Assembly (NCBI RefSeq): GCF_003073045.1
Contig: NC_037593.1
Location: 6,439,525-6,503,524 of the forward strand
Reading direction: 5' to 3'
Source of the DNA: Pomacea canaliculata
Lineage: Eukaryota > Mollusca > Gastropoda > Architaenioglossa > Ampullariidae
Length of the DNA stretch: 64,000 nt
Shown here: one piece after another, positions 30,430 through 36,400 of the stretch
Layout of the letters: each line of letters opens with the position of its first letter
Numbering within the stretch: position 1 is the stretch's first letter
Notes under the pieces: generated by a model
The model's database searches: none
Told to the model about the DNA's origin: nothing
The model's input: the letters and a program-made list of their open reading frames with translations, nothing else
Made by a program: the position numbers and the translations under genes

Positions 30430-33400
30430 TCATTCTTTGATGGGAACGTCTGCTGGCTGAAATTTGAGAGTTTCCTGGTAAATGAGTTCTTTTAGCTGTT
30501 CCTTTGGTAGGTCATCCAATTCCATTTCAAATGTAAAAGGTTCCTCAGCTACAGGCTGTTTACAAAAGAAAAAAACATCATTGCAAGCGAACTATAGACA
30601 AAAGCTCATGAACCCTAATATCTACAAGAAGAAAAACTTAAAAGCAAAACCTGCAATTCACATGATAGTTTAAGAAACAAATTAAAAAAAATAAGGCGAG
30701 GTTACCATAAAAGATATTCATTAAATTCCCCAAAGCACAATAAGCCATTATTCTATTAAGCAATATACTCCACACAGTAACACAGCACATGCTATATAGT
30801 AACTATGATGTTGGGAAGTTTCTTCTGGCATCTCATCTCGCTGTTTTTATATACCTGTAGCAGGGTTTGACGTTTTTGGGTATTCTTACAATGGTATGCA
30901 CAAACCAAAGCTAAGTCTTAAATTTTCCACCAGTATCACTGGAATCAAGCTCAAATTACAGACCAGCTGACAAAAGTGCTATGATCACTGGACCTAAGGT
31001 CAAATTACAGACATGCTAACAGAATACTATGATCACCAGACCTAAGATTGAATTACACATTGACAGAATGACAACATCAACAGATCAGAGAACACTGTAT
31101 TACTGTGATTGCCAAAGACTGTATCTTTTACATCCTTGCTGACAGGGTGTAAATGTAGAAGGTTAAGACAGGCAAAAATTCTTCAGCAGATCATACCTCA
31201 TCCCCGGGGTCATAGTACTGTTCAAGGTATGGATGTGCCAAAGCTTGCTCTACGTTGATCCTCTTGTTTGGATTGAAGGTCAGCATCTTGTCCAAAAGGT
31301 CTAATGCTGTAAAAGCCAGGCAAATCTCCTTTACAACATTTCTTAACAAATTAACTCCATTTGTACTAAAGATATTAAATACAACTATCAAAGGCCAGTG
31401 TTCACAACATACAAGGAAAAGTGTACAAGGCAACTATTACTCACCCACAAAGGAAAAGTCCTTCATGTAAAAAATGTAAAAACTCAGCAGAAATAAAATG
31501 TGCTCTGTGACTTTCCCACTCTTATGCCAAATAACCTTCTAAAGAAAATTGAACGTCTCCTAAGTAGGACTTAAATGTTTTACAGAATATTCTCCCACAA
31601 ATTAAACTAAATATAAATCTTTACTGATTTGCTGTTTTAGTCAAATTTGATGTTCTAATAACTTTCTGAAGTTACTTCTAGATCTGAATTAGGCAAAATT
31701 TCTCAAATCAATTTTAAGTAATTTGTTTAAGTATACTATTTTAAATATGTATTATTTCAAAACAACAAAACTCACTAGTCAATAAACAGAATAGAACACA
31801 CCTACCAACTGTTTCTAAATGCAGTAAGCAGTGATCTTTCTCACCTTTTGGATCTGCTTTCTGGTACATGCGTTTCCATGGCACCTTGGATTTAAGAGGC
31901 AAAGACTGTATATATCCCCGTGCCTGAAAAGATCCAATTTTTTTTTTAAAGAAACACAACTATTGAAATATTATCATTCTCATAGGCATGAGAGAGATCG
32001 AGGAATGCTTTACTGAAACGTTTAGCTTGTCAAGACTTGGCTGCCTGGGATAACTCAGGTTCAGAGTGGAAGCAGATAGCTGCAGGGTTAGAGCACCGTC
32101 ATATGAACTAGAGGCATGTTGACTCAATATCCATGTGGTACAGCCAAAAGATCACAGCCAAGTAGGACCAGCTGTCAGGAGTGGGTATCTAACGGCAAAG
32201 CAGAGATTGGCACTGCCTTCACAAAAAGCTGGCCCCAAAATGTGAGATTCCAAATACCTTTCTCTCTAACAAGCAAAGAGGATAGGGGAAGACCTTTTTT
32301 GTTTTTTATTTAGGTCAGAAGGACTGCACCTTACACTGAAATCAATCCACAAAGTGGCCATTCCAGAGGTCATGGCACACACACACACCTTATCATTAAT
32401 GATGCACATAAGATCTTCCTGGCTTGGCGAGCCCAGCACACCCAGGATATGATTCAGCTGGTCCAGATCTTTCCTACTGTCAAGGCCTTCAATCTTTGAC
32501 GACAGTGCACAAACAGACTAGTCTAGACTACTCTTGTCAGACAAACATGCTTACATCTTAGTGAAACAGGAGTAAGAAATAAAAGCTATTTAAATCATTC
32601 TGCAGAAAAGGTTTTTACCCATGATAGACCTTCCTCTCTTGGCCCTTCAGATGGAGACTAACAAAGCAAGCCATTCCCTTATATTTTAATCAGGAGATAC
32701 ATCTTTCTAATTGCTCAGATATGCATGCAGCTTTCTTCAAGCACTTCTTCACAATGCTCTTTTTTGGGCTTAAGTTTATTAACACATGACTGTTTATAAA
32801 TCAAGCTCAGTAAGAAAAGTAAACAAATTTAGCAAAAATTAATTTAAAAATATTTATGCACATTATTAATGGATGTGAATGTAGAGGTCTGATCAACAAT
32901 GAAATCAGCTGAACTTTGGTACTGAGAAAATCAATGCATGAACTCCCACTGTAAGAAATCAAGGTTTTTAACTCATCCATTAAAGGGCAAATCAACACAA
33001 CTGAGCTGTAGATATGAAGACATTTGCATCTACAGTGGGAACTATATTGGAGCTAAAAACCTACCACTAGTTCTCACCATTAAAAAAAAAAGTCCGAAAA
33101 ACAGATTTGAAAAATCAAACTATGAATAAACACCATGTGCCAGTGAGAAAATGACTGCACTGACTGAAAAAAGGTACTTCATTTTTCCTAAACAACATAA
33201 GCTTGTATTTTATTCAGCAGTTAATTATAAAGTAATTGCTATTAACCTTCTTCTAAATTTGTTTGATACATGTGTTATTCAGTGTGTAAATGTTATATAA
33301 GGAAAGTCCATAAGCAGGATTCAGGTATTCTGGAATACGTAGTAATTATTCCCATAAGAATGATGAAAATTTGGCTCGTTATCAGAACCATTTTTTAAGA

Positions 33401-36400
33401 ACAAGATAATCCTGTTACTGAGATTCGACTTTACATATTTCAAACACCCTTAAAGTCTAACCTTCCTTTATATGTGAAGAGCTCCGAGTGATAAATTTAA
33501 AATATGCATGCTATGTATAATGTATTGCTATAAAAATCTTTGAACATGCACGTTATGCACAGTTTATTAAGTTCTATTCATCCTCTATTCCCTGTCCATC
33601 TGCAGAATGATATGCAAACATAGAATAATAAAAAGGATACAATGTTTTCCTGGAAACAGCGGTCGGTTGCCAAGCATTTCTGCCAGTATGCATCCCACAG
33701 ACCATACATCAACTGACTGCAGTCAAGGAAACCAGAAGAGCACTATGCTGTATTTCAAAGAAAACTAATGTAAACTAAAGGGGAAAAAGACATTTTAACA
33801 TGTTTTACAACAAACACAAACCATGTTAAAGAGAGGTTCCTGGCTCAGGTGCCTTTGGGCCACAGCTCTGGCAACATGACTTTTAAGAAAGTTCTGGCTG
33901 GCCTCTGCTAAATTTTGCAAACAGCAACAACACAACTTACTTTATTTTTATGGCTGCTCTTAAGCAACTTTAAAGCCTAATTACAGAGAACTAAAATAAC
34001 AGCATCCGAATGTGTGCATCTTTTCCTTTGTTCTATTTCATACTAAGAACAACTAAAAGAAACACAATTCATTTTATTTATTCACTTCCCAGTAAAACAC
34101 AATGAAGGGAACTGAAAATCTCCATTATTTACACGTTCATAATAAAGACCAAGCTCATCAACTGGCTACACCCTACCCACTGTGCTTCATTCCTATCCAG
34201 CACCCTGTCCAAATTATACTTTTCATTACCAGTCACTGCACACAATTCTTCAAAGCATAAAACACAAAAGGGAATGACATGAACACAAATCAGTTCACAT
34301 TTTTTTCTCTCTATAAGCTTCAGAGATTCTATGCACCCCAAGCAGCGAAAAAAGGATATTAGACTTCGTGTAACCCTTTGAGTTCAGCATAATCTCTGGG
34401 GCCCGATACCAGCGGGTGGCAACATACTCTGTCAGGAATCCAGTGTGATCGTGGTCAGGGTCAGCAATCCGTGCAAGTCCAAAATCACAAATCTGTGTCC
34501 AACAGGCAATCATGTTTATCATCTATACAGCCTATGTTGGACAAACAGTGTCTGTTACAGGCTATGCATGGAAAATACTATGAAAAAGATTTATTACAGG
34601 CAATACCCTGTTAAACTGAACATCAACTCATAAAATAAATTTTAAGGCATGTGATAATTTTATGCATTATTCTGTATAGAGAACTTATTTCAGTTTTGAA
34701 TGCAATGATTCATTTCCTAAAGCAAAATGCAGCTCTTTTTGAAATTTGTCAAGCTGTTAGTTGGAAGCAAACCCTTAGGCCCAATAGAAACTGGCATTTC
34801 AGAACCTCACGATCAAATTTAGCTTACAAAGTTACATATTTTAATACAAAACACAAGCTTGGGTATCTTGAAAAGGTGTCATTAGCTTGAAAATGCAAGT
34901 GTGAAAACAAGAGGTGGAACCATTAGCTGGTAGTGTACCTTGAGATCACATGTGGTGTTCAGAAGAAGATTAGAGGGCTTCAGGTCACGGTGCAGGACAT
35001 TGGCGGAGTGTATGTACTTTAGGCCTCGAAGGATCTGGTAGAGGAAGTAACAGACATGGTCATTGCTGAGCTGCTGTGTCTTCAGCAGCTTGTACATATC
35101 TGTCTCCATCAGGCACTGCACAATGTACCTGGCACCAGGTCAAGGAACATTTTGCACAATTTTATTCTAACCAACAAAAAGAAAGGGGAACAAAAAACCC
35201 TGAGGGCAAGAGGTGGATGTTACGCACAATTTTATTCTAATTAACTTTTGTGTAAACAAGCATAAAGAAAACATTTTGCACAAATTTAGCATTTTATTCT
35301 AATAAAAAAAAAAGAACAAGACAACTATTGTAATTACTGTAATATATACATCATTACATCATGAACAAAATAATTGCAAGTTTATGCAAGAATTGTCTTA
35401 ACAAGCTGACCAATGAATCTGATCTCAAAAGTGCACAGAAATGCCCCTTCCCCCTGCATCAAGTGTGTGTGTGTCCTTCCCACCCCCATCCTCTAAAGAT
35501 GTGGCTCTGTAGTGAAGGATACACATCCTTCATTTCTGCCTGGGATGCAGCTCGCAAGATGTCCCTTATATCGATGATCTGCAACACAAGTGATATATTA
35601 GTACATTACTCTCTTCTCTCCTTTCAACTGACACATTACGACATTGAAAAACAAAACACAAACAAAAAAAACCCAAAAAGCCACCTGCACCACTTGTACA
35701 ACAAGCTATACTTGTGTATGAGGTTTAAGAACTGGAAAGTATTGCAACACCTAATAACCATGCTGGTATCAACAATTATACCTGCAAATAAAGGATAAGA
35801 ACCAGAGAGGGTTGTAATACTTAATAATCACACTGAAGGAAGCTGCTGGGGAGGGGAGAGGTGCCAACACATGAAGCTTCTCTGTTTGTGAAAAGAAATG
35901 GTAAATACATTTCTACCTTTTAACAAAGACGTTCAAGCACATATACATGAGTATTTCAGATGCTAATATTTGAGAGGGTTGGTAGCTTGGTAGGTCACTG
36001 TGAAGCTGAAGTGTTGATTTCCAAGCATGCTTGGGTCTGTGACTGGAAAACCCAGTCCTGTCCAGCAAATTTGGATACCTGACTGATCAAGGGAGGTAAG
36101 GGCAGTGGAAGTAAGAAGGATTGGGCTCTGCCTTTTTGCATACTGTGGCCTAGACATGGTGGACCACCTACACTCACTGTCACTAGGTCATGGGACACTT
36201 TGTTTTCATACATTAATGAAAATTGGGTGGGTTGAGGGGAAACAAATCACAAAGTAAGATATTTCGACTTCCATCCCTTTCCTCTTTCCAAACTTCCCCC
36301 ACTACCCGTTTTAAACCTAGGTAGAAGCTTAAGACATTGGGTGGGGGGAGGGGGAGGGGGAGGGTGTAAACAGAGAGCAGCTGTGGGTGACTGTAGCGCC

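Follow-up and report, generated by a model that had tools for sequence, protein, structure and literature searches.

The 64-kb stretch of Pomacea canaliculata DNA analysed here (the window; positions 6,439,525-6,503,524 of contig C4, in a searched genome of 440 Mb in 24 contigs) contains a gene for the mitogen-activated protein kinase (MAPK) ERK, three of whose nine introns carry the signals of the minor, U12-type class. The complete gene lies on the minus strand at positions 47240-30430 of the window and comprises 10 exons and 9 introns, as assembled from tblastn hits and the reading frame, with junctions derived from protein conservation and splice motifs. The predicted spliced product has 367 amino acids, with the TEY loop and a full kinase domain, and shares 83% of its residues with human ERK2 across an alignment of 356 positions. 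Judged by its sequence, the gene is an ordinary ERK1/2 orthologue.

The three U12-type introns, all on the minus strand, interrupt the protein at sites that we call positions A, B and C. Intron 3 (35129-35522; 394 nucleotides (nt), phase 2) lies at position A, D-V|Y; its donor, GTATCCTTC, occupies 35514-35522, its branch site, TTCCTTGAC, occupies 35139-35147 with the branch adenosine at 35140 (-12), and it ends in CAG. Intron 5 (33713-34359; 647 nt, phase 1) lies at position B, K-S|I-D, with donor ATATCCTTT at 34351-34359, the same branch site as intron 3 at 33722-33730, its adenosine at 33723 (-11), and a CAG end. Intron 6 (32469-33640; 1172 nt, phase 1) lies at position C, K-H|Y-L-D-Q, with donor GTATCCTTT at 33632-33640, branch site GGCCTTGAC at 32479-32487, its adenosine at 32480 (-12), and an AAG end. 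Scored against a donor consensus of RTATCCTTT, the three match at 8, 9 and 9 of 9 positions, and the other six introns at 2-6 of 9; against a branch consensus of TTCCTTRAC, the three have 0, 0 and 2 mismatches, and CCTTGAC is present in each. An earlier note on this DNA had described near-perfect U12 donors in these introns, CCTTGAC branch points with one sequence shared by two of them and the adenosine 11-12 nt from the exon, one intron with AT-AG ends, and junctions that reproduce ERK in phase. Our scoring bears out each of these features and types introns 3, 5 and 6, but not the other six, as U12, and the predicted junctions give an in-frame product with phases 2, 1 and 1.

The terminal dinucleotides of the introns are in keeping with this typing. 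Being GT-AG, AT-AG and GT-AG in order, they fit the U12 class, whose ends are GT-AG or AT-AC and more rarely AT-AN, and human AT-AG U12-like introns are on record, some of them edited to GT-AG (PMC4176328). The region before the 3' site, where U12 introns lack a polypyrimidine tract, gives a mixed picture: by eye, a tract is absent from introns 3 and 6, and the end of intron 5 is moderately pyrimidine-rich. U12 introns are biased against phase 0 (PMC7367187); here the phases are 2, 1 and 1 in the U12 introns versus 2, 0, 0, 0, 1 and 0 in the U2 introns, although the introns are few. We infer that the minor (U12) spliceosome probably excises introns 3, 5 and 6.

The rest of the gene is likewise on the minus strand. 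Exons 1 (47110-47240, with the start codon) and 2 (43182-43308) were placed by tblastn with ERK2 and the gene model; tblastn and the gene model likewise placed exons 3 (35523-35578), 4 (34939-35128), 5 (34360-34492), 7 (32389-32468), 8 (31845-31923), 9 (31197-31306) and 10 (30430-30555, with the stop codon). Exon 6 (33641-33712; IDVWSVG..FPGKH), of 72 nt, has a phase-1 U12 intron on either flank. The remaining six donors, GTAAGT, GTAAGT, GTACAC, GTGTGT, GTGAGA and GTATGA, look U2-type; the two GTAAGT donors belong to introns 1 and 2, which flank exon 2, and GTACAC to intron 4 (34493-34938; phase 0, with a CAG end).

On their own, the U12 motifs are not striking in 64 kb of DNA. RTATCCTTY occurs 6 times in the window against 2.05 expected (at least 6 in 3 of 100 shuffles), TTCCTTRAC 3 times against 1.70 (at least 3 in 23 of 100), and CCTTGAC followed by AG after 1-18 nt 8 times against 7.39 (at least 8 in 48 of 100). 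The rates of RTATCCTTY and of CCTTGAC near AG, at or not far above chance elsewhere in the window, are what could be said for a reading in which the motifs are coincidental and introns 3, 5 and 6 are actually U2-type. The placement of the motifs speaks strongly the other way: with the introns of the gene itself as the basis of a first-order Markov model, the approximate probability of finding ATCCTTY at three of the nine donors of one gene is 1.2e-10, and adding a nearby CCTTGAC takes it, roughly, to 1e-19. Moreover, the same signals recur in paralogous genes at matching alignment columns, as described below, and we give coincidence virtually no credence. For intron 5, we also scored U2-type alternatives by protein and splice sites together; the best other junction reached 107, against 122 for the AT-AG junction, and was rejected.

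To place the introns within the family, we compared the gene with six further MAPK genes in the same genome, located by a p38 search, a MAPK15 search, regional fetches and tblastn: p38a (locus L039), p38b (L040), JNK (L041/L042), NLK (L043), ERK5 (L044) and MAPK15 (L060). A junction search of ERK and the first five of these yielded 45 introns (9 in ERK, 10 in p38a, 10 in p38b, 7 in JNK, 6 in NLK and 3 in ERK5), apart from which four junctions were modelled for MAPK15. The models of the first and tenth p38b junctions and of the first and third ERK5 junctions are poor, and all four were retained among the 45; the script gave the third ERK5 junction an AT donor matching at 7 of 9, which we re-read by eye as AAAAG|GTGTGT. 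No model was obtained for JNK intron 1, and exon 1 of p38a was not found in the stretch examined.

In an alignment of the seven proteins, the residues split at positions A, B and C fall at columns 14, 130 and 154 (0-based) in ERK, p38a, p38b and JNK, with equal phases; NLK, too, is interrupted at column 14 (position A), and its phase there equals that of ERK. The intron types at these columns differ between genes. At position C, all four genes have a U12 intron, with donors GTATCCTTT in ERK, GTATCTTTT in p38a, ATATCCTTT in p38b and GTATCCTTT in JNK. At position A, the intron is U12 in ERK (GTATCCTTC) and NLK (GTATCCTTG), and U2 in p38a (GTGAGT), p38b (GTAAGT) and JNK (GTGAGT). At position B, only ERK is U12 (ATATCCTTT), with U2 introns in p38a (GTATGT), p38b (GTGAGT) and JNK (GTTAGT). 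The NLK intron (4898-5025 of L043; 128 nt) has its branch site, GACCTTGAC, at -12 and an AAG end. The p38b intron at position C (6560-6934 of L040), with its branch site AACCTTAAC at -12 and a CAG end, is a second AT-AG U12 intron among the MAPK genes of this genome.

Overall, 7 of the 13 introns at positions A, B and C have U12-like donors, versus 0 of the 32 elsewhere, counting the third ERK5 junction as re-read by eye. None of the four MAPK15 junctions is U12-like (donor match 4-6 of 9), and neither ERK5 nor MAPK15 has an intron at A, B or C. We also scanned both strands of 39 kinase loci for RTATCYTT within 20 nt of the end of a kinase exon, and the only sites were the three in ERK (L012) and position C of p38a (L015), p38b (L025) and JNK (L028). 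These loci are short (3-4 kb; L045 is 10 kb), several overlap, and they do not span whole genes; position A of NLK lies outside them. The earlier note had proposed comparing intron positions and types with ERK, p38 and JNK genes of other animals; within this genome, the shared columns and phases strengthen the U12 typing of the ERK introns. ERK5 (L044, within 6,129,001-6,139,000 of C4) shares its contig with ERK, about a third of a megabase away, which is possibly a trace of their duplication.

Common descent is the simplest account of the shared columns and phases. Since introns also interrupt p38 and JNK at these positions and in these phases, and NLK at one of them, the ERK introns would be inherited and not newly gained. 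We consider it very probable that ERK introns 3, 5 and 6 are inherited ancestral MAPK U12 introns, of which those at A and B turned U2 in p38 and JNK. In a MAPK ancestor, all three positions would have been occupied by U12 introns before the divergence of ERK, p38 and JNK. ERK would then have kept all three as U12, and p38 and JNK would have kept C as U12 and converted A and B to U2. If p38 and JNK are sisters, one conversion each would be enough for A and B. NLK would have kept A alone, as U12, and ERK5 and MAPK15 none at the columns of A, B and C. That conversion ran from U12 to U2 we infer from the usual assumption that minor introns change to major ones, which is held to be nearly the only direction (PMC10639083).

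Several observations weigh against this history or against the typing on which it builds. The branch site of ERK intron 6, GGCCTTGAC, is weaker than the others, with its two mismatches, and two AGs, at +4 and +7 from its branch adenosine, are nearer than the frame-keeping AG at +12; that of JNK at position C is weak, with at least three mismatches. ERK5 has a U2 intron 3 columns before C, and MAPK15 has one 5 columns before B, in phase 2; a third, in NLK and in phase 0, separates columns 157 and 158, 3 columns past C. Because these near misses lie off the shared columns, sliding, loss with re-insertion or a separate origin has to be assumed for them. Lastly, the ancestral account is based on one genome and the literature. 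In ERK intron 5, an AG likewise occurs 7 nt past the branch adenosine (within 33713-33730); since use of this AG, or of those at +4 and +7 in intron 6 (within 32469-32487), would shift the frame, all must be skipped.

The same near misses lend something to an alternative in which the ERK introns acquired their U12 signals by separate gain or by conversion from U2, the U2 state of p38 and JNK at A and B being ancestral: with U2 introns of NLK, ERK5 and MAPK15 within 5 columns of B or C, insertions may have recurred in this region, and at B, ERK is the sole U12 case among the four genes with that intron. This history accords poorly, however, with NLK, which is also U12 at A and in the same phase, and with position C, which is U12 in four of four genes with the intron. 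It would also run counter to the minor-to-major direction generally assumed (PMC10639083) and to the record of U12 gains, of which at most one is reported (PMC2831892). We therefore judge separate gain or reverse conversion decidedly unlikely beside inheritance of the set. On the latter reading, the paralogue table, with U12 introns in one of four genes at A (plus NLK), one of four at B and four of four at C, serves as a within-genome test of U12-to-U2 conversion, and what it adds is the likelihood that the set is ancestral and underwent two conversions. It also suggests that MAPK genes owe their well-known connection with minor splicing at least partly to one ancestral gene.

Genes for the three minor-spliceosome RNAs searched for are present in the genome, with scores above the Rfam cut-off for U6atac (94.7 bits), U4atac (74.3 bits) and the U12 small nuclear RNA (snRNA; 117.1 bits, and 66.3 bits for a second copy). 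By eye, on the reverse complement, both U12 snRNA copies retain the branch-pairing motif GAGTAAGGAA, and U6atac retains AAGGAGAGA. The two U12 snRNA copies (L047 and L048) lie within 3 kb of each other on contig C6; the second has diverged, with the branch-pairing stretch kept.

Retention of ERK intron 3, 5 or 6 would lead to a stop after 21, 21 or 18 codons, respectively. Productive ERK mRNA should thus need all three minor-splicing events. Among exons 2-9, exon 6 alone can be skipped with the frame kept, giving a predicted product of 343 amino acids. A rival interpretation of the introns is regulatory, with ERK a deliberate target of the minor spliceosome: when U6atac is low, the introns would be retained, and a rise in U6atac upon stress or growth signals would release the mRNA. 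Early stops within 18-21 codons favour it, and three slow steps would multiply. In human cells, U6atac is unstable and is raised by p38 (PMC3728624); the idea that ERK is gated follows this published p38-U6atac switch model. In a mammalian study, Mapk1 is one of the transcripts whose minor-intron retention is up in Rnpc3-recombined mouse acute myeloid leukaemia cells (n=2 for Mapk1), and gastric adenomas heterozygous for Rnpc3 contain 35% less phospho-ERK1/2 protein (both PMC12332006). Against it, a stop on retention is not special to the U12 introns, as retention of any of the nine ERK introns produces one. The authors of PMC12332006 see in their RNA-seq no definitive evidence that A549 cells grow more poorly because BRAF, RAF1 or MAPK transcripts are mis-spliced. 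Shared ancestry by itself accounts for the number of U12 introns, so that regulation need not be invoked, and we hold the deliberate-target interpretation to be unlikely.

The two ideas can also be combined, so that the introns at positions A, B and C are older than the divergence of ERK, p38 and JNK (the one at A also older than that of NLK), the full set persists in ERK alone of the seven MAPKs, and the three introns jointly gate ERK; as a whole, this proposition seems to us a long shot, and the gating of ERK by U6atac, which the earlier note had raised, is hypothetical. If joint gating were true, a shortage of U6atac should mean less productive ERK mRNA and more in-frame skipping of exon 6, and the resulting 343-residue ERK would be without the DxWSxG segment. 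A three-intron ERK would be a useful reporter for asking if the capacity for minor splicing is limiting for a central kinase. Pipelines restricted to GT-AG, GC-AG and AT-AC may, in addition, misannotate the AT-AG junction of intron 5; TopHat is an example of an aligner that accepts just these (PMC4176328).

Outside the ERK gene, two open frames on the plus strand, at 55664-56035 (GFVYKSGSADAAVRFNIYIDLICP..) and 60608-61348 (GFVYRCGHNNAPIHFDLYIDLTCS..), resemble each other, which suggests a tandem pair of related genes; neither had a match in a Pfam search at an E-value of 0.001. At 7168-7482, also on the plus strand, an exon-like frame contains a Sushi repeat (PF00084, E 2.7e-6). An Rfam scan of the window returned nothing at the gathering score.

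The minor introns of ERK, JNK and p38 have been published before, and three in one gene is rare. Human minor introns number 770 and are spread over 714 genes, of which 50 have two and 3 have three (PMC6717393), which agrees with the earlier note's remark that U12 introns usually occur singly. Within-gene clustering of U12 introns was significant in 21 of 21 genomes tested (PMC7367187), and in one count, 69% of the MAPK family are minor-intron genes (PMC6865273). Molluscs are among the protostomes comparatively rich in minor introns (PMC10639083), and a Drosophila screen found that splicing factors modulate RAS/MAPK signalling via altered MAPK expression (PMC3958334). The human three-minor-intron genes in MIDB resemble snail ERK in holding several U12 introns each, and they are only 3 of the 714 (PMC6717393). 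In the portions of the literature searched, the names of these three genes were not given, no statement was found that places human MAPK1 or MAPK3 inside or outside the three, and no intron types for these two genes were found beyond position A.

The closest counterparts of the snail introns are the minor introns of mammalian ERK2 (MAPK1/Mapk1), which belongs to the same gene family. In the exon map of the human gene, the exon that encodes R-F-R-H-E-N precedes position A. The R-F-R-H-E-N residues are encoded by the forward primer of Mapk1_U12_intron (PMC12332006). Given that exon map, intron 2 of mouse Mapk1 seems to correspond to the U12 intron found here at position A. Snail ERK has three U12 introns, one of them AT-AG, and mammalian MAPK1 is compared with it at position A alone. 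In NLK/nemo, a U12 intron, intron 6 of 10, is conserved from fly to human (PMC2831892); snail NLK has its U12 intron at A, and the two may lie at the same position.

JNK provides a comparison for the exon between positions B and C, which is presumably the exon 6a/6b of MAPK8/9. There, the mutually exclusive exons 6a and 6b are followed by a U12 intron, and the choice between them is a competition involving two 3' splice sites of U2 type and two 5' splice sites of U12 type (PMC8329584). A JNK-like, mutually exclusive duplicate of exon 6 was sought in snail ERK and JNK and rejected, as tblastn gave a good E-value for the known copy only. Snail JNK has the U2-then-U12 arrangement of MAPK8/9. Unlike JNK, snail ERK has U12-type flanks on both sides of the exon between B and C.

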